30,749 nt of DNA, from positions 1-30,749 of IMG/VR virus record IMGVR_UViG_3300025000_000321; one strand, 5' to 3'. A program made the position numbers and the translations under genes. Source of the DNA: a virus. The notes below the pieces were generated by a model that was given only the letters and a program-made list of their open reading frames with translations, was not told the DNA's origin and did not search any database. Below are positions 1 to 6,079 of this stretch, in pieces; the first letter of the stretch is position 1; each line of letters begins with the position of its first letter.

Positions 1-2
1 CA

Positions 3-320
3 AAACAAGCCGTGAATGTTGACGGACTTAAAGGGGTATTAATAAGAAGTTATGCTGCAGGAGTACATTTCGGTTATTTGAAAGACGAAAAATTTACTTC
101 TTCGGGTAAGGTTGTAACTTTATTAAACACCCGGCGAGTTTTTTATTGGGAAGGTGCGGCTTCGTTATCTCAAATGGCTCTTGAGGGCGTTTCAAAACCA
201 AAGACTTGTAAATTTTCTGTGCAACTTGATAGCAATGAAATAGTAAATGTGATTGAAACAATCCCTCTTACAGAAAAAGCATTATTAAATTTATATGGAG
301 TTGCCGTATGGAAAGTGTAA
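3..320 (+). CDS. DUF6948-type phage protein (5' end probably cut by window edge)
   Basis: The reading frame is open to the left edge, so the N-terminus may lie outside; a GTG at 12 is the first internal start candidate. The protein has the pattern I associate with the DUF6948 family of small phage proteins: an opening strand VLIRSYAAGVHFG, a central stretch N-T-R-R-V-F-Y-W-E-G-A-A-S-L-S-Q-M-A-L-E-G-V, and a closing I-I/T-P-L-T-E segment ending in V-W-K-V. About 100 residues is the usual length. The biochemical role is unknown; members occur in many phage accessory regions. The stop codon overlaps the start of a repeat-encoded reading frame at 308. Family assignment is from memory of the motif pattern. 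Confidence 0.6.
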   Translation, partial: KQAVNVDGLKGVLIRSYAAGVHFGYLKDEKFTSSGKVVTLLNTRRVFYWEGAASLSQMALEGVSKPKTCKFSVQLDSNEIVNVIETIPLTEKALLNLYGVAVWKV

Positions 321-493
321 AAAGTTCCGGTGACGGTTCCGGTGACGGTTCCGGTTCCGGTTACGGTTACGGTTCCGGTTACGGTTCCGGTTCCGGTGAC
401 GGTTCCGGTGACGGTTACGGTGACGGTTACGGTTCCGGTTCCGGTGACGGTTCCGGTGACGGTTCCGGTTCCGGTTACGGTCACGGTGACTAA
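308..493 (+). CDS. Possible Gly-X dipeptide repeat protein encoded by hexamer repeat
   Basis: An ATG at 308 overlaps the stop of the preceding gene and opens a 61-codon frame: MESVKSS followed by 27 Gly-X dipeptides where X is Ser, Asp, Tyr or once His, then a TAA immediately after the last repeat. The stop sits exactly at the end of the repeat, which slightly favours a real frame. However, the hexamer leaves other frames stop-free too (an alternating Val/Pro/Thr frame on the same strand and a Thr-Val/Gly frame on the other), so openness alone is weak evidence. There is no clear Shine-Dalgarno sequence. If translated it would be a flexible, hydrophilic, unstructured peptide. Function unknown. 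Confidence 0.3.
   Translation: MESVKSSGDGSGDGSGSGYGYGSGYGSGSGDGSGDGYGDGYGSGSGDGSGDGSGSGYGHGD
329..490 (+). repeat. 27-unit hexanucleotide tandem repeat, GGT followed by TCC, GAC, TAC or CAC
   Basis: Twenty-seven uninterrupted 6-bp units all begin GGT; the second triplet is TCC, GAC or TAC, with one CAC near the end. In amino-acid letters the order of X is DSDSSYYSYSSDSDYDYS then SDSDSSYHD. The block is markedly more GC-rich than its surroundings, ends exactly at a TAA, and is followed within a few bases by a run of T. GG recurs every six bases on this strand, so two-tier G-quadruplex formation is conceivable. It may be a variable-number repeat. Confidence 0.95.
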
Positions 494-549
494 GAAATCT
501 TTTTTTTTTTGATAAACAATTAAATCCGAGATTGAAGATAAAATGATAT

Positions 550-579
550 TTGACAAAGAGAAGATTTTTTGTATCTTTA
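550..579 (+). promoter_or_regulatory. Promoter TTGACA-16-TATCTTTA
   Basis: TTGACA at 550-555 is followed after 16 bases by TATCTTTA at 572-579. Read the Bacteroidota way it is TTTG (549-552), 19 bases, then a TAnnTTT(A) box. The same -10 octamer recurs at 6596-6603. It would drive the structured leader and the RNA-ligase/homing-endonuclease region. Confidence 0.6.
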
Positions 580-583
580 CGAT

Positions 584-713
584 GTGAATTTTGAAGATTG
601 TTCTAATTCACAAAATTTTGATAGCGTTGAGCAAAGCAACGGAAGAATTTGAGGTTAATCTCTCAAATTAATACCCTTATTTCACTGACTTTGCCAGATG
701 ATTTAAGGGTATT
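584..713 (+). promoter_or_regulatory. Structured 5' leader of four consecutive hairpins
   Basis: Directly after the promoter come four perfect inverted repeats in a row: GTGAATT (584-590) with AATTCAC (605-611); CGTTG (625-629) with CAACG (637-641); AATTTGAG (646-653) with CTCAAATT (662-669); and AATACCCTTA (670-679) with TAAGGGTATT (704-713). A good ribosome site, AGAGGTGA, and an ATG follow at 723-734. This looks like an untranslated leader that stabilises or regulates the message. It now leads only into a truncated RNA-ligase start. No known riboswitch was recognised. Confidence 0.5.
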
Positions 714-731
714 TGCGTTTTAAGAGGTGAT

Positions 732-794
732 ATGTTTAAGAAATATCAACATATTGATTTGATATTAAATAAAATTTCTTTATATTACATCTAA
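732..794 (+). pseudogene. Truncated RNA-ligase start (orphan N-terminus)
   Basis: A 20-codon frame with an excellent ribosome site (AGAGGTGA at 723-730) begins M-F-K-K-Y-Q-H-I-D and then runs into unrelated residues and a TAA. The first nine residues match the start of the full RNA ligase at 1654 (M-G-F-R-R-Y-Q-H-I-E), with about one third of the bases different. It therefore looks like the original start of the resident ligase gene, cut off when the GIY-YIG gene arrived with its own diverged copy of the ligase start. The promoter and leader upstream still belong to this stub. The match is short, so chance similarity or an unrelated leader peptide cannot be excluded. Confidence 0.5.
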
Positions 795-851
795 ATTTAG
801 AAGACGTTCGCCATATCGAATGGGAAAGTTCAAGTTAATTTACTTGGATAG

Positions 852-894
852 AAAACCTTTATTTTACAATATATGGATTGTAAAATGAGGTTTT
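852..894 (+). terminator. Strong 17-bp hairpin, terminator or translation block
   Basis: AAAACCT (852-858) pairs with AGGTTTT (888-894) and ATTTTACAAT (861-870) with ATTGTAAAAT (877-886), separated only by a TT/G internal loop. The terminal loop is 871-876, and TTT at 893-895 then CTGTTT follow. It lies between the orphan ligase start and the homing endonuclease. An ATG at 873 lies in the loop, which makes that ATG an unlikely start. Confidence 0.6.
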
Positions 895-914
895 TCTGTT
901 TATATAGAGAGAAA

Positions 915-1664
915 GTGCAGGGCATATATAAAATTACAAATATTCTTGATAACAAAATATATATTGGTAGTTCTATTAATATAAGCAATAGAATTAAACA
1001 ACATTTTTATATGCTTGAATCAAATAAACATAAATGTTCACATTTGCAAAATGCTTTTAATTTATATGGTAGAGAGGTATTCAAACACGAAACATTAGAA
1101 GAAATCAGAAACAACGATCAACTATTAACCAGAGAACAATATTTTTTGGATTTATTCAAATCATATAATAGAACTATTGGATATAATGTTTGTCTAAGTG
1201 CTTCACATTCAAGGCTTGGCATTTCTCATACCGCATTAACTAAAGAAAAAATAAGCAAAATATTCAAAGACAAAAAACTAAGTCCAGAACATAGAGATAA
1301 AGTTATAAAAAATCTGCAAACAGGCAAAGAAATGTCTTCGGAATGTAGAACGAGACTGGGCAATGAAAGAAGAAAATTGAAAGCTATAGATATAGAAAAA
1401 ATCATTGTTTTATATCAACAAGGATTAACGCAGAAAGAAATTGCTATAATTTATAATTGCTCAAAAATGTTAATAAACAGAACTTTCCTTAGATTATATA
1501 AAGAGAATAGAATTAAAAAACGTTCTGTTGAAACGAAAGAACACGTTCTTTGGGAAATTAATAATTCTGCTTTGCTTCAATCGCAAATCGCAACCAAATT
1601 AAATATTTCCCGATCTTTGGTTACACATATAAAAAACAATTTAGGAGACCAATATGGGCTTTAG
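915..1664 (+). CDS. GIY-YIG homing endonuclease with NUMOD3-like DNA-binding region
   Basis: The protein opens with the GIY-YIG nuclease signature (G-I-Y-K-I-T-N ... K-I-Y-I-G-S-S), followed by an Arg in SNRIKQH and a Glu in TREQYFLD as expected active-site residues. A NUMOD3-like segment (LGISHTALTKEKISKIFKDK, then LSPEHRDK) and two helix-turn-helix-like stretches (LTQKEIAIIYNCS; LLQSQIATKLNISRSLV) make up the DNA-binding half. I chose GTG 915: GAGAGAAA precedes it and it puts GIY at the usual distance from the N-terminus. An upstream in-frame ATG at 873 sits inside a 17-bp hairpin. The 3' end overlaps the RNA ligase start by 11 bases. Such free-standing enzymes spread themselves into neighbouring genes of related phages, here evidently the ligase gene. 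Confidence 0.9.
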   Translation: MQGIYKITNILDNKIYIGSSINISNRIKQHFYMLESNKHKCSHLQNAFNLYGREVFKHETLEEIRNNDQLLTREQYFLDLFKSYNRTIGYNVCLSASHSRLGISHTALTKEKISKIFKDKKLSPEHRDKVIKNLQTGKEMSSECRTRLGNERRKLKAIDIEKIIVLYQQGLTQKEIAIIYNCSKMLINRTFLRLYKENRIKKRSVETKEHVLWEINNSALLQSQIATKLNISRSLVTHIKNNLGDQYGL

Positions 1665-2553
1665 ACGCTATCAACACATCGAAAGATATGGCAATGCAGA
1701 AGTTGAAGGGATTGAATTTGGGAACTGTTATATCTTCCCTAAGATAGACGGTACAAATTCTCAACTTTGGTTTGAAGACGGACTTATTCTAGGCGGGTCA
1801 AGAAATAGGACTTTAAGTTTAGAAGACGATAATCAAGGATTTTGTGAATGGGTCGCTCGTCAAGATAATTTTGCATACTTCTTTTCTGAAAATCCGTATC
1901 TTAGACTTTATTTGGAGTTTTTAGTCCCGCATACTCTAAAAACCTATCGAGAAGATGCTTGGCGAAAAGCATATGTTTTTGACGTGTCCGTTCTTAACGG
2001 GGAAGACGAAGAATTTCTTTCCTACGAAGTTTATAAGCCAATATTAGAAAAACATAACATTGAATTTATCCCGCCGATTTGTTCTATTAAAAATCCGACT
2101 TATGAAGACTTAATACAAAAACTTGATTCTAATACCTATCTTATAAAAGACGGCGAAGGATTTGGCGAGGGCATAGTTATAAAAAATTATGATTATCACA
2201 ATAAATTTGGTAGACAAATTTGGGCTAAGATTGTAAGAAGTGAGTTCAAAGAAAAGCACGTTAAGACTATGGGATACCCAGAAATGGACGGCTCAAAAAT
2301 GATTGAAGTTGAATTTGTAGAGAATTATTGCGGGGCGACATTAATAGACAAAACTTACGCAAAGATTGTAAACGAAACCGGTGGATGGAGTTCCAAATAT
2401 ATTCCAAGACTTTTACAGACAGTTTATTATGATTTGGTTAATGAGGAAACTTGGAATTTTATTAAAAAGAATAAATTACCAACAATTAATTTTAAGACAT
2501 TAAACTACTTGACTATAAATAGAATTAAAGAATTGAAACCGGAATTATTTTAA
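1654..2553 (+). CDS. RNA ligase, Rnl2-like nucleotidyltransferase
   Basis: The 299-residue protein carries the ordered motifs of ATP-dependent nucleotidyltransferase ligases: motif I K-I-D-G-T-N with the adenylated lysine at residue 30; S-R-N-R-T at 49-53; motif III L-Y-L-E-F at about 85-89; A-Y-V-F-D-V at 106-111; motif IV E-G-I-V-I-K-N at 172-178; and motif V W-A-K-I-V with lysine 192. A C-terminal domain of about 100 residues follows. The enzyme would seal nicked RNA, probably to repair tRNA or other RNA cut by host defences, though no partner kinase is visible here. AGGAG at 1643-1647 supports this ATG. The start overlaps the homing endonuclease, so translation is probably coupled to it. 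Confidence 0.9.
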   Translation: MGFRRYQHIERYGNAEVEGIEFGNCYIFPKIDGTNSQLWFEDGLILGGSRNRTLSLEDDNQGFCEWVARQDNFAYFFSENPYLRLYLEFLVPHTLKTYREDAWRKAYVFDVSVLNGEDEEFLSYEVYKPILEKHNIEFIPPICSIKNPTYEDLIQKLDSNTYLIKDGEGFGEGIVIKNYDYHNKFGRQIWAKIVRSEFKEKHVKTMGYPEMDGSKMIEVEFVENYCGATLIDKTYAKIVNETGGWSSKYIPRLLQTVYYDLVNEETWNFIKKNKLPTINFKTLNYLTINRIKELKPELF

Positions 2554-2569
2554 GAACAATTATTTCAAA

Positions 2570-2816
2570 AACCAAAACCGTAGCATAAAGAGTTTATCTT
2601 TGGTTCTCAAACATAATGCAAACACTATCACAGTATCAATAAAAGTAGTCAGAGCACGTTACCAACCGTGTCGAACAAGGAAATTTGAGAGCCCTTGCTT
2701 CTACTGTGAAAAACGGGCTATCTAAAGTCTTTTTTAAGAGTTCTGCTTTAGTATAGTTTAGTGAATAGTCAGAGTGTACTTGACACCTGCGCTTTAGAGA
2801 AGAAGAGTTCTCAAAG
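2570..2816 (+). ncRNA. Candidate structured non-coding RNA in a 400-nt gene-free gap
   Basis: No credible gene lies between 2554 and 2955. The stretch holds successive inverted repeats: AACCAAA (2570-2576)/TTTGGTT (2599-2605) with an inner ATAAA/TTTAT; CACAGTA (2629-2635)/TACTGTG (2702-2708) enclosing CACG (2655-2658)/CGTG (2667-2670) and CAAGG (2676-2680)/CCTTG (2693-2697); CTAAAG (2722-2727)/CTTTAG (2746-2751); and CTTT-GAGAA (2792-2801)/TTCTC-AAAG (2808-2816). AGCCC/GGGCT around 2690-2719 is a competing pairing that would break two of these. TAGTCAGAG (2646, 2766) and GTTCTCAAA (2603, 2807) each occur twice. It is not a canonical tRNA. Strand and promoter are uncertain. Confidence 0.35.
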
Positions 2817-2900
2817 AAAGATATTGGTGTGCCCAGGAAGAAGATGTGGAGCGATTTAATTTAACAAAGGGAAAATGTTAGCGGAAATAAAATCATTTAC

Positions 2901-2929
2901 TTGACTATTAATATTATTATAATTAATAT
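2901..2929 (+). promoter_or_regulatory. Promoter TTGACT-17-TAATAT
   Basis: TTGACT at 2901-2906 and TAATAT at 2924-2929 are 17 bases apart in a very AT-rich stretch. The start of the small zinc-ribbon gene follows 27 bases later, which would give a short leader with AAAGGA as ribosome site. It would head the cluster running to about 6555. Confidence 0.4.
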
Positions 2930-2955
2930 GCAGTGAAATTAAAAAGGATAGTGTA

Positions 2956-3096
2956 ATGAAAGAATCAGACAAGGAAAACCCATGTCGGCACAAATGCGTA
3001 AAGTGTGGCTACGAATGGGACAGCAGGAAGGAACACCCTAAGGCATGCCCATATTGTAAGTCATACAAATGGGGAACAAAAGAGAACAAGAAATGA
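2956..3096 (+). CDS. Small zinc-ribbon protein (46 aa)
   Basis: The ATG at 2956 follows AAAAAGGATA and starts a 46-residue protein with a four-cysteine ribbon: C-R-H-K-C-V-K-C-G-Y-E-W then C-P-Y-C. The two CxxC pairs, KCVKC and CPYC, are about 18 residues apart, as in rubredoxin-like or ribbon zinc fingers. The Y-E-W after the first knuckle resembles bacterial FmdB/zinc-ribbon domains. It probably binds one zinc ion and may contact nucleic acid or a protein partner; no enzyme activity is indicated. It is probably the first gene after the promoter at 2901-2929. A nine-codon frame (MSKKKPKGK, 3093-3122) overlaps its stop and may only carry the next ribosome site. Confidence 0.65.
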   Translation: MKESDKENPCRHKCVKCGYEWDSRKEHPKACPYCKSYKWGTKENKK

Positions 3097-3123
3097 GCAA
3101 GAAAAAACCAAAAGGAAAATAAA

Positions 3124-3402
3124 ATGACGCTCGATGAAAGTCGTGTTTATAGTAAGGGCTATAATGCTGGGAAGAAAATTAAAGCAGAGGAAATCAATAG
3201 GATCATAGAAAATGCTCGGACAACATTTAAGGCGAAAACCAGAGATGAGATATATACTCAGTTTTTTTGTTCTGTGTTGAATGGATTATTGGCTGGAGAT
3301 GCGACATGGGAAACTGGGGCCGAACCAGTTAAAAACATAAGGACTTATGTCCAATTAGCTAAAGAGTTTGTAGAGGAAATAATGAAACAATTAAAAAGAT
3401 AA
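3124..3402 (+). CDS. Hypothetical phage protein (92 aa)
   Basis: The start is well supported by AAAAGGAAAATAAA just before the ATG. The protein begins MTLDESRVYSKGYNAGKKIK, a pattern common in small phage proteins where a G-Y-N-A-G-K turn separates two helices. It is mostly helical and charged, with a single cysteine and a Lys-rich end. There is no signal peptide or membrane segment. Cotranscription with the zinc-ribbon gene upstream is likely. No function can be assigned. Confidence 0.65.
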   Translation: MTLDESRVYSKGYNAGKKIKAEEINRIIENARTTFKAKTRDEIYTQFFCSVLNGLLAGDATWETGAEPVKNIRTYVQLAKEFVEEIMKQLKR

Positions 3403-3452
3403 ACAATGACGGATAGGATACGACAAAGAAAAAAACAATATACGATTATAAT

Positions 3453-3560
3453 TTGAAGTGTTTAGAGTGCAAGTGTTTTTGTAAACAATCAAAGAATGTA
3501 GATATAAAGTTCTGCCCATATTTTAAACCAGTGGAAAAAAAGAAAGAAACAACAATCTAA
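3453..3560 (+). pseudogene. Degenerate zinc-ribbon paralogue lacking ATG and one cysteine
   Basis: An open frame from 3417 to the TAA at 3558-3560 has no ATG or GTG; the only start candidate is TTG 3453 without a ribosome site. It reads K-C-L-E-C-K-C-F-C ... F-C-P-Y-F-K, the same layout as the intact ribbon at 2956 (K-C-V-K-C ... C-P-Y-C-K), but the last cysteine has become Phe, a TGT to TTT type change. Two very short ATG frames overlap it and make no sense as proteins. I read it as a decayed duplicate; a short functional Cys-rich peptide is the alternative. Confidence 0.35.
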
Positions 3561-3582
3561 TAGTATTATATAAGGAAGTAAA

Positions 3583-3894
3583 ATGACAAAGAAAGATATC
3601 ACAAGCGAATTTAATAAACTCAAGCCTTTTGGTTTTGAAGTAATCACATATAATGACAGCAGACCCTTAAGAAAGCAGCAGTCAAATTTTGTAGATCATC
3701 TTATCTTTAATGGGAAGTACATAGTGTTCGTGGAAGTGAAAATTGGCAGAGATAAATTATCTATATCTCAAGAAAGAACAGCAATTAAACTTTTGCAATG
3801 CTCTGAGCATAATAAATATGTTTTTTATAAAACAGTATTTACATTAGCAGAAGCGAGGGGCATAATAAAAAATTTATTAGCAGAGACGTTATGA
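3583..3894 (+). CDS. PD-(D/E)XK nuclease-like protein (VRR-NUC/Holliday-resolvase type)
   Basis: The 103-residue protein has a minimal PD-(D/E)XK core: Asp38 in F-V-D-H-L-I-F-N-G, then a beta strand Y-I-V-F-V-E-V-K with Glu51 and Lys53, and S-Q-E-R-T (Gln63) in the next helix. This pattern matches small VRR-NUC or resolvase-like nucleases in phages, which cleave branched or structured DNA with a metal ion. The start follows ATAAGGAAGTAAA. The stop overlaps the next gene by ATGA, suggesting paired translation with the His-rich protein. Fold assignment rests on motif spacing only. Confidence 0.55.
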   Translation: MTKKDITSEFNKLKPFGFEVITYNDSRPLRKQQSNFVDHLIFNGKYIVFVEVKIGRDKLSISQERTAIKLLQCSEHNKYVFYKTVFTLAEARGIIKNLLAETL

Positions 3895-4241
3895 TTTCAA
3901 AATACACACGATATAACAAAGAACTCTATGAATTTAAGTCTAAGGACTATTTGAAGTGGGCAAAAAATAAATATCCTCATTTGGATTTACATCATATACT
4001 TTCCAAGAAAGTGGACTTACTTATCTATCCAGTAAGGCACAGTTATCATCTGCAGGCAGTCCACCAGCACAAAGCACACTTTTTTGAGAAGTGGTTAATC
4101 GAATCAGTAAATATATTCTTGGTTTATGTAAACGAAAAATTCTTCGATAAGTTCGACCAACAGTTAAAACTATCAGACTATGAACCTGCAACTTTAAAGG
4201 CATTGTTTGAAAGAGTTCAACAATTAGAGGTAGATAAATGA
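3891..4241 (+). CDS. His-rich protein, possibly HNH/His-Me-finger-like
   Basis: Residues 33-63 are strikingly His-rich: L-H-H-I-L-S-K-K at 33-40, P-V-R-H-S-Y-H at 47-53, then V-H-Q-H-K-A-H. An H-H-I ... D-L ... P ... H pattern recalls HNH-type nuclease cores, where the first His activates water and the others bind metal, but the second half is not convincing. A helical, acidic C-terminal part follows. Its start overlaps the nuclease-like gene and its stop overlaps the next ORF (ATGA both times), so the three are probably translated together. A non-catalytic metal-binding protein is the alternative. Confidence 0.45.
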   Translation: MISKYTRYNKELYEFKSKDYLKWAKNKYPHLDLHHILSKKVDLLIYPVRHSYHLQAVHQHKAHFFEKWLIESVNIFLVYVNEKFFDKFDQQLKLSDYEPATLKALFERVQQLEVDK

Positions 4242-4378
4242 AAATTAATGAAATGCCATATTATCTTTTGGGTGGTTTTGGGGTGGGTCTTATCTGGGGC
4301 AGTTCAAATTTAGGGACAGCCATTGGCGTATTAATGTTTTTAATTGCTATTGAATATGAGAGAAAGAGGACTAATTGA
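4238..4378 (+). CDS. Small membrane protein (46 aa)
   Basis: The ATG overlaps the preceding stop (ATGA). The product has two hydrophobic stretches, residues 8-20 (YYLLGGFGVGLIW) and 27-39 (TAIGVLMFLIAIE), separated by a GSSNLG turn, and ends in basic ERKRTN. It is therefore either a short hairpin in the inner membrane or a single segment. The tail charge predicts the C-terminus in the cytoplasm. It sits next to another tiny membrane protein and near a lipoprotein, so a lysis or exclusion role is imaginable but not shown. Confidence 0.5.
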   Translation: MKINEMPYYLLGGFGVGLIWGSSNLGTAIGVLMFLIAIEYERKRTN

Positions 4379-4482
4379 AAAAGATAATCATAGCCATTGC
4401 TCTAGCTTATTTAGTAGTACGGTATTATAAAATGCTGAATGAGTTGGACAGCTTATTTGACGAAAGGAAAATTTATGAATAA
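4375..4482 (+). CDS. Very small single-span membrane protein (35 aa, TTG start)
   Basis: A TTG at 4375 overlaps the stop of the gene before it and opens L-K-K-I-I-I-A-I-A-L-A-Y-L-V-V-R-Y-Y-K, a typical N-terminal membrane anchor, followed by a short charged tail LNELDSLFDERKIYE. Stop-start overlap on both sides (the next ATG at 4475 lies inside it) supports translation. The T-T-G start and small size make it uncertain. Function unknown. Confidence 0.4.
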   Translation: MKKIIIAIALAYLVVRYYKMLNELDSLFDERKIYE

Positions 4483-4852
4483 GACAGAAAAGTTCAGACC
4501 GAGCAATGGAACAGATGGCGAAATATTCATGTGCGATTTTTGTTATCACTGTATAAACGAGAAATGGATACACGATCAAAAAGAGGGTGATAAAAAATGC
4601 GAGATATTAAGTAAAATGATTTTACTTGATACCGATAATAAGAATTATCCTGAAGAATTGACTTACGATACGGAAGATTACCCGATTTGTACGGCTTATA
4701 AACATTGGGATTGGGATAACGATGGAGGTGCTGACGATCCGCAAAATCCAAAAGCACCAATTCCGGTTGATCCGCAACAATTGATCTTATTTTCTTTTAA
4801 TGAAAAGATAGATGAGTTAATTAAAGAATCAGAAATTTACAGAGAGGTATAA
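4475..4852 (+). CDS. Cys-rich phage protein of unknown function
   Basis: I place the start at ATG 4475 because AAAGGAAAA lies just upstream; an earlier in-frame ATG at 4439 has no ribosome site and would lie inside the preceding small gene. The protein begins M-N-K-T-E-K-F-R-P-S-N-G-T and has a C-D-F-C-Y-H-C knuckle at 20-26, a further K-C-E-I-L at about 42 and C-T-A-Y-K-H-W-D-W later, consistent with a metal site. An acidic, Pro-rich segment (DNDGGADDPQNPKAP) precedes the end. I recall this layout from other phage hypothetical proteins. No activity known. Confidence 0.6.
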   Translation: MNKTEKFRPSNGTDGEIFMCDFCYHCINEKWIHDQKEGDKKCEILSKMILLDTDNKNYPEELTYDTEDYPICTAYKHWDWDNDGGADDPQNPKAPIPVDPQQLILFSFNEKIDELIKESEIYREV

Positions 4853-4853
4853 A

Positions 4854-5117
4854 ATGAAAACTGTATTAGTAATATTATTTCTGTTTATTCTATGGGGATG
4901 TGGGAATGAAAAATCAAGCTACAAAGAATTAAATCCGAGTGTCCCCGATAACGTGCAGATGCTTGCTCTGTCCGCCTATGAATGTGGATATGATCAAGCT
5001 GTTTTAGATTACACAAGAGCAATTAACAGCAGAAAGAACTTTCTCGATTATTATAAATTAAAAGCACAACAACAGAGCAATAAATATGCGAAAGAAATAT
5101 TTGGGAGTTCAAAATGA
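4854..5117 (+). CDS. Putative phage lipoprotein
   Basis: The N-terminus MKTVLVILFLFILWGCGNEK is a lipoprotein signal: one basic residue, a hydrophobic run, and a lipobox L-W-G-C with lipidated Cys16 (Trp at -2 is unusual). The mature part is about 70 residues, hydrophilic and helical, ending in a Lys/Gln-rich stretch. It would be tethered to a membrane facing the periplasm. It overlaps the next gene by ATGA; the two downstream genes also encode exported proteins. A superinfection-exclusion or lysis (spanin-like) role is possible, but no spanin partner motif is clear. Confidence 0.6.
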   Translation: MKTVLVILFLFILWGCGNEKSSYKELNPSVPDNVQMLALSAYECGYDQAVLDYTRAINSRKNFLDYYKLKAQQQSNKYAKEIFGSSK

Positions 5118-5494
5118 AAATTAAATTATTAGCAATCATATTTCTCTTGGTGCAAGTTAGTTTTGCGCAAACACTAAATTTTACTTCTAATAACCAACTG
5201 AGAAGGAGCGATATAACAGTGTCTTCTAAAGAGATTGTCTTTGCTTTTATTGCTGATTCATCTCAACTTTTTATGGACGGGAAGTTGTTGCCGTTAATCA
5301 ATAGTGGACAAGAAGAATCTTGGGATTCTAAAACTGGTGAGAATAGAGAGTGTTGTTATAGACTTAGGAATGATGAACTGGAATGTGTTTGGGACATAGT
5401 GGTTGACTGTAAGACTAAAACACATATTAAAGAAATAAGAAAAATTGGGTATTATGGCAATGGATATATTTATTATAGGAGAGTAGGCAAATGA
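5114..5494 (+). CDS. Exported protein with signal peptide (126 aa)
   Basis: Residues 1-19, MKIKLLAIIFLLVQVSFAQ, form a classical signal peptide with predicted cleavage after S-F-A, leaving a mature protein starting Q-T-L-N-F; this A-Q junction is typical of Bacteroidota and relatives. The mature domain is beta-rich with E-C-C-Y-R-L and V-D-C-K cysteines that could form disulphides in the periplasm, and ends in a Tyr-rich strand (GYYGNGYIYYRR). Overlaps by ATGA on both sides link it to the lipoprotein and to a second secreted protein. I do not recognise a family. Confidence 0.6.
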   Translation: MKIKLLAIIFLLVQVSFAQTLNFTSNNQLRRSDITVSSKEIVFAFIADSSQLFMDGKLLPLINSGQEESWDSKTGENRECCYRLRNDELECVWDIVVDCKTKTHIKEIRKIGYYGNGYIYYRRVGK

Positions 5495-5886
5495 AAACAC
5501 TAATATTTTTATTCTTATTTGTAAGTATTGGTCATGCACAAACGACAACACCGTTAAGTCCTATTGATTCGACAAGAAAAGTTCTTAAAGAAAAATATGG
5601 TTATGATTTAGTCCTACCTATTGTACAACAGCCAAAAACTTGGCAACAAGAACTTATTTCTCTCTGGAAAGAATATAAGAGCGAGTGCTACAAAGACTCA
5701 ACGGTCAATAATGTTTGGTTGTCCTATGATTCATTGGCGACGGTAAAATATTATGAACAACATCCAGACATCCCCAAAGAAAATAGATGGGGGTCAATTA
5801 TGAAAGAAGAAAAGATTTATTCTCACAAACAACCAACCTTTGAGGGATTTATGGAATGGTTTGGAAAAAGATTAGGAGATAAATAA
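5491..5886 (+). CDS. Exported protein with signal peptide (131 aa)
   Basis: A second Sec signal, MKTLIFLFLFVSIGHAQ, with cleavage expected after G-H-A, precedes a 114-residue mature part that is Lys/Glu-rich, contains W-Q-Q-E-L-I-S-L-W-K-E-Y-K and ends G-F-M-E-W-F-G-K-R. No membrane segment follows, so it is probably a soluble periplasmic or secreted protein. It is the third exported product in a row and overlaps the gene before it by four bases, suggesting a joint role at the cell envelope. Family unknown. Confidence 0.6.
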   Translation: MKTLIFLFLFVSIGHAQTTTPLSPIDSTRKVLKEKYGYDLVLPIVQQPKTWQQELISLWKEYKSECYKDSTVNNVWLSYDSLATVKYYEQHPDIPKENRWGSIMKEEKIYSHKQPTFEGFMEWFGKRLGDK

Positions 5887-5887
5887 T

Positions 5888-6079
5888 ATGGCAGACATTA
5901 AAGAGTTCATAGAAGCATACAAGAAAGGAATTGGAAAAGGGATAGAGGTTTGTGATAAAGAGTTGGCTCATTTAAATAAATGGAATTATAAAAAAGATGA
6001 ACCAGCAAAAACATCAGTGCTGTTTATCAAACAACAGTTACAGCAACTAATTAAGGAGCAAACAATAGAATTAAAATAA
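5888..6079 (+). CDS. Hypothetical small protein (63 aa)
   Basis: The ATG lies two bases after the preceding stop; the upstream GGAGATAAATA inside that gene can serve as ribosome site. The sequence (MADIKEFIEAYKKGIGKGIE then a helical C-terminus KQQLQQLIKEQTIEL) is charged and helical, probably a short coiled coil or two-helix protein. No signal peptide. Unknown function. Confidence 0.55.
   Translation: MADIKEFIEAYKKGIGKGIEVCDKELAHLNKWNYKKDEPAKTSVLFIKQQLQQLIKEQTIELK

Follow-up and report, generated by a model that had tools for sequence, protein, structure and literature searches.

An RNA ligase gene of a virus appears to have been invaded at about codon 8-9 by a free-standing GIY-YIG homing endonuclease, which brought with it a diverged and probably uncuttable copy of the target's end; we give this reading a probability of about 85%. 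The window, meaning the whole stretch of DNA that was analysed, is a 30.7 kb virus record whose genes include those for a terminase, a P22-type portal and an SU10-type capsid, and in which no tRNA genes were found. The locus of interest runs from an orphan ligase start through a spacer and a GIY-YIG endonuclease to a restarted, intact RNA ligase. The initial annotation had already proposed homing in which a divergent version of the 5' end of the target came along, with a record of the insertion point left in the sequence. Both parts of that proposal are well supported, mostly by relatives of the locus, in one of which the orphan is native and the tip of the restarted gene is diverged. The features of the window that are referred to below are as follows.

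550 to 577, plus strand: possible promoter, TTGACA-16-TATCTT (weak hit of a consensus scan)
670 to 713, plus strand: leader hairpin, AATACCCTTATTTCA / TGATTTAAGGGTATT (inverted repeat I24; leader fold z -2.6)
722 to 731, plus strand: ribosome-binding site of the orphan, AAGAGGTGAT (from the sequence)
732 to 758, plus strand: orphan ligase start, codons MFKKYQHID (profile score, relatives and DNA motif)
759 to 914, plus strand: non-coding spacer from orphan to endonuclease, without a ribozyme match
850 to 897, plus strand: strong AT-rich hairpin, its arms of 21 bases 86% complementary, with a T-rich stretch after it (inverted repeat I4)
915 to 1664, plus strand: GIY-YIG homing endonuclease gene with a GTG start (PF01541, phrog_7168 and likeness to the L021 locus)
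1643 to 1647, plus strand: AGGAG ribosome-binding site of the restarted ligase, within the endonuclease gene (from the sequence)
1654 to 1664, plus strand: 11-base overlap between the end of the endonuclease and the start of the ligase (from the sequence)
1654 to 2553, plus strand: restarted complete RNA ligase with a KIDG nucleotidyltransferase motif (PF09414, phrog_548 and alignment)

The frame opened by ATG 732 reads MFKKYQHIDLILNKISLYYI and then stops (732-794, stop codon 792-794), its homology to the ligase ending at about 757/758, while the ligase starts again behind the endonuclease, at ATG 1654, as MGFRRYQHIERYGN and is intact to 2553; the order of a cut-off start and a later restart is thus confirmed as it had been described. 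The ribosome site before the orphan, previously called good, also appeared so to us when judged by eye. A promoter and a structured leader had been proposed upstream as well, and only the leader held up: it has a moderate degree of structure (z = -2.6, equalled by 3 of 200 shuffles), whereas the consensus scan found 14 sigma-70-like sites against 13.1 expected, and the site at 550-577 is not above chance. This site also resembles the Bacteroidota-type promoter TTTG...TAnnTTTG. We do not claim that positions 759-872 of the spacer are a further ligase remnant, as the one 15-base match (792-806 with ligase positions 1814-1828, 14/15 identical) is borderline, with 16 of 300 shuffles as good.

A profile was built from 70 distinct ligase N-termini, with relatives taken from viral contigs and from bacterial and archaeal assemblies. 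When the DNA 5' of ligases was scanned with it, the orphan of the window scored 26.1 bits and that of a second virus contig, L021, scored 24.6 bits, against a reverse-strand control maximum of 14.9 bits over approximately 214,000 positions. A degenerate DNA pattern encoding F-[KR]-K-Y-Q-H-I-E/D, searched in all of IMG/VR, gave 15 matches, 14 of which either fall on contigs collected before on account of their ligase or were recognised as ligase starts on direct reading; the single remaining match was assigned to neither group. Resemblance of the orphan to ligase starts is therefore beyond chance at the level of the family. Within the window, 24 bases of the orphan can be aligned with the restart and 8 of them are different, in line with the one third estimated before. 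Their likeness on DNA alone lacks significance, as 91 of 300 shuffles reach it, and the case therefore rests on the protein motif.

It had been suggested that uninterrupted ligases with an orphan-like start be sought among relatives, and three of them were found (L082, L192 and L241), each with 22 of 23 bases identical to the orphan. Two observations that would have spoken against homing were also looked for: an orphan 5' of a ligase with no endonuclease gene between them, of which we found no case, and a conserved leader peptide, of which there is no sign, as nothing is conserved in the orphan after YQHI(E/D). The structured leader and the good ribosome site would suit an orphan that is an independent regulatory leader peptide, and a chance match might be considered too. 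However, this lack of conservation, the score far above the control, and the recurrence of this relation, with differently ending orphans, in L021 and in another virus (L003) make either of these explanations very improbable.

The gene that follows the orphan encodes 249 residues, matches PF01541 (4e-13) and phrog_7168 (5.7e-30), carries the GIY and YIG motifs and has a helix-turn-helix in its C-terminal part. GIY, YIG, Arg26, Glu74 and Asn91 are common to the endonucleases of the window and of L021, and the catalytic role of these residues in GIY-YIG enzymes is established for I-TevI. Its most likely start is GTG 915, where MQGIYKIT aligns with MIGIYKII of L021; the same alignment disfavours ATG 873 as the start. 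Searching by protein patterns revealed no close relatives of the window endonuclease, alignment gave 80 more distant ones, and a search with the DNA-binding half returned only L021 plus weak partial matches. The region of the hairpin at 850-897 folds with z -5.6, and the hairpin is possibly a terminator or a translation control of the endonuclease. It may limit endonuclease expression in the way of the hairpins or terminators found at the 5' end of some free-standing T4 endonuclease genes, as described in PMC2988022.

A GIY-YIG gene between two parts of another gene is also the classic layout of a group I intron with an encoded endonuclease, and the orphan would then be a 5' exon spliced to the 3' exon after YQHI. 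However, an Rfam search of window positions 1-6000 gave no match up to E=2 (no intron, no HEARO and no ribozyme), hence no ribozyme core was detected; the endonuclease frame ends within the ligase start, and the ligase behind it needs no further part to be complete. The L021 orphan passes directly into the endonuclease, and apart from the endonuclease gene itself fewer than 40 bases separate the two ligase parts, a junction so short that it leaves no room for a ribozyme. We thus hold an intron to be next to impossible and class the endonuclease as free-standing by the lack of an Rfam intron match, its overlap with the ligase start and the lack of room at the L021 junction.

The restarted ligase matches PF09414 (1.7e-13) and phrog_548 (7.5e-37) and possesses the KxDG motif. 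The endonuclease stop codon TAG (1662-1664) is made from ligase codons 3-4 (TTTAGA), and in L021 the overlap is also 11 bases long. An AGGAG of its own stands six bases ahead of the restart, and the coupling of its translation to that of the endonuclease, on which the ligase had been suggested to depend, is permitted, but not proved, by the overlap. No relative of the window ligase above about 60% identity was seen among the matches listed. The approximately 400 bases 3' of the ligase (2554-2955) contain no open reading frame of at least 60 residues, no tRNA and no Rfam match.

L021, a 55.8 kb virus contig, repeats the arrangement with an orphan MAKKVFIKYQHIER, an endonuclease and a restarted ligase MEFKKYMHIERFG. 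The two endonucleases are 50% identical (E 4.5e-54) and are sisters in a tree of 39 endonucleases (support 91/95). In the ligase tree, the window and L021 lineages fall into different clades, L021 being represented there by its near-twins L167 and L174; sister endonucleases beside ligases of separate clades point to separate acquisitions. Relatives without the endonuclease have ligases 93% (L174), 92% (L013) and 88% (L175) identical to that of L021, and the ligase of L013 begins MAKKEFRKYQHIERFG. Ligases of the L021 type are similar to Cellulophaga phage ligases. Because the L021 orphan with its upstream DNA aligns to L013 109-175 (67 bases, 79%, E 5e-11), and the L021 ligase body aligns to L013 at 86% on the DNA level, both orphan and body are native. 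Compared with L174, the L021 orphan differs at 3 of 29 bases and the restart at 9 of 29, the latter counted on the sequences. Over the restart's first 45 columns L021 differs from the relatives by 16-19 (start-codon gaps counted), against 3-5 among the relatives themselves. With the gapped start codon left out, 12 of 42 bases of the restart tip differ from L174, versus 13.4% elsewhere in the gene (binomial P 0.007). Judged from these alignments, only the ligase's first 40 or so bases beside the endonuclease are unusually diverged in L021, on a patch test that is modest and a tip that is short. The L021 restart is also without the native MAKK extension and has a Gln-to-Met change (YMH) that is natural in other ligase subfamilies, and so looks to be of foreign origin.

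Fungal mitochondria offer a precedent in the hybrid genes formed by mobile endonuclease ORFs (mORFs), known for atp6 of Allomyces macrogynus and for atp6, atp9, cox2 and nad3 of Glomus sp. (PMC3630166). In these, a foreign diverged copy of a gene end arrives with the endonuclease ORF, and the native end is orphaned and is closer to element-free relatives (PMC3630166). The same signature, a native orphan and a diverged copy on the endonuclease side, is found in L021; the relatives of the window are all at about 60% identity or less. The loci resemble the fungal hybrids in having the target's terminus on both sides of the endonuclease gene and differ from them in that the fungal cases concern the C-terminus in mitochondria, whereas the window concerns the 5' end of a phage gene, with the endonuclease stop codon inside the restarted gene. 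The layout of the window is thus a mirrored, 5' phage counterpart of the known fungal hybrid logic.

Two other histories must be weighed against this background. On one hand, the whole ligase, or most of it, might have been imported from another phage together with its upstream endonuclease, replacing the resident gene and leaving the old start behind. The lack of a close relative of the window ligase and the difference of orphan and restart at a third of bases agree with this, and the present arrangement would also result from a donor ligase that had an endonuclease adjacent to it on the 5' side; however, the L021 body is native (92-93% to uninterrupted relatives) and only its tip is unusually diverged, so that we consider such an import unlikely. 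On the other hand, the 5' end might have been locally duplicated in tandem at the insertion, the downstream copy being recoded under selection without any foreign DNA. This would make a donor unnecessary, and most differences between the window copies do keep the amino acid or its class. The L021 restart, however, without MAKK and with the YMH of other subfamilies, looks foreign, and the fungal parallels were attributed to transfer (PMC3630166); we regard tandem duplication as rather improbable.

Under invasion by the endonuclease with a diverged gene end, the orphan at 732-758 would be the 5' end that the recipient gene had at first, severed when the insertion took place. In a phage without the gene, the endonuclease would cut the YQHIE(R) region of the ligase start, and the break would be repaired, with co-conversion, from an endonuclease-bearing donor that carried the endonuclease directly 5' of its own ligase start. 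On the right side, repair might proceed via ligase homology and bring in the short diverged tip, whose new spelling probably resists cutting, while on the left side joining with little or no homology might strand the native start. As the endonuclease ends inside the second ligase start, the ligase would be restored at once from ATG 1654 and read from its own ribosome site, perhaps aided by coupling through the overlap. Among the points that count against this reading are the lack of close ligase relatives by which native and imported parts could be told apart in the window, and the spacer of approximately 155 bases with its hairpin between the window orphan and the endonuclease; the L021 spacer is very short and without a hairpin. 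Once the end was duplicated, relaxed or accelerated evolution could also have added to the divergence of the restart.

An unrelated nuclease occupies the same codons of this ligase family in a 117 kb virus (L003/L014), where L014:1443-2995 runs from an orphan MQYKSYQHVERWGNEN through a HEARO RNA and an IscB nuclease to a restarted ligase MQYKSYQHIERLGNEN with a GTG start. The HEARO RNA (RF02033, E 3.8e-17) begins at L014 1489, exactly at the end of the orphan, and the nuclease matches RRXRR (1.7e-58) and IscB of the PDB (1.5e-44). Of 48 bases compared between orphan and restart, 12 differ, and the duplicated stretch covers 22 residues, including the ribosome-site region, with a score of 80. 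IscB systems have their guide immediately 5' of the HEARO RNA, and the orphan is therefore the expected guide, so that the locus looks like RNA-guided homing with rescue. Apart from the orphan and restart in the same codons, it differs from the window in its nuclease and in a target set by the guide's position; positions 1-6000 of the window gave no HEARO match. L251 and L252, two IscB relatives from other phages, have the HEARO RNA but not the duplicated flank.

As a separate observation, a contig of a bacterial MAG (L249, approximately 3270-4014) carries an apparent HNH intein, CLSGDTT...VHN|C, in the same ligase family, between GEWL and CPHTL. The RNA ligase gene is repeatedly targeted.

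We also screened 79 loci with relatives of the window endonuclease for a peptide just 5' of the gene that recurs just 3' of it. The null, from 232 cross-locus pairs, had a maximum score of 37 and a next score of 35. Nine distinct loci scored at least 36, including the window (36) and L021 (37), and since the null extends to about these two values, the argument for both loci depends on the profile test at the level of the family. Two mirror forms were seen among the survey loci. The 5' form comprises the window, L021, L089-L091 and, by eye, L093 (MSWIYKGKV, MWVYQNKVF); in L089-L091, at about 3914-4720, an orphan MSHFAVLV and a restart MSHFCVLVIGD are found around a phage protein without known function. 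In the 3' form, a complete gene stands 5' of the endonuclease, and the stranded native C-terminus follows directly after the endonuclease stop codon. It was found with ThyA in L126 and L140 (in L126, complete HPAIKMPLSN and stranded HPHIKAPISN), with ThyX in L158 and with gyrase B in L144, so that the version known from fungal mORFs occurs in phages as well. Sister endonucleases of that of L158 also follow ThyX in L125 and L139. A duplication in L095 (dnaX), seen as one 9-residue match, is tentative. L129, with a score of 138, was rejected as an end duplication, being a whole-gene duplication of a tail protein.

Free-standing endonucleases that interrupt a coding gene which still works are represented by the T4 mobA/gene 60 bypass cassette and by Aeh1 mobE in nrdA. 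There, a split protein or ribosome bypass maintains function, whereas in the window a complete restarted gene does so. According to PMC2988022, the free-standing seg (GIY-YIG) and mob (HNH) genes of T4 spread when they cut a conserved gene next to them and its flanks are co-converted. They are intergenic, lying between conserved genes, in contrast to the window endonuclease, which lies in the ligase start; both are intron-less. Phage endonucleases near or within essential genes are described in PMC2988022 and PMC10448857. Our search covered open-licence literature, and no phage endonuclease with both a stranded gene end and a recoded restart appears in the available text of these two articles.

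We lean slightly towards a broader view, in which many free-standing homing endonucleases of phages, including RNA-guided IscB, would be home-and-rescue cassettes, each placed at the extreme end of a conserved gene: a recoded gene end would restore and protect the target in a single step, and the stranded native end would mark the cut site. Such a layout would allow a homing gene without an intron to insert into coding sequence while the useful phage gene that it enters stays functional, as a natural counterpart to engineered home-and-rescue gene drives. The stranded native end would make recognition sites readable from sequence alone, those of RNA-guided IscB included, and as the layout can be searched for systematically, targets of uncharacterised endonucleases might be predicted.

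Elsewhere in the window, positions 308-493 hold a low-complexity open reading frame with GSGDGSGYG repeats, built of tandem GGTTCCGGTGAC-like units.
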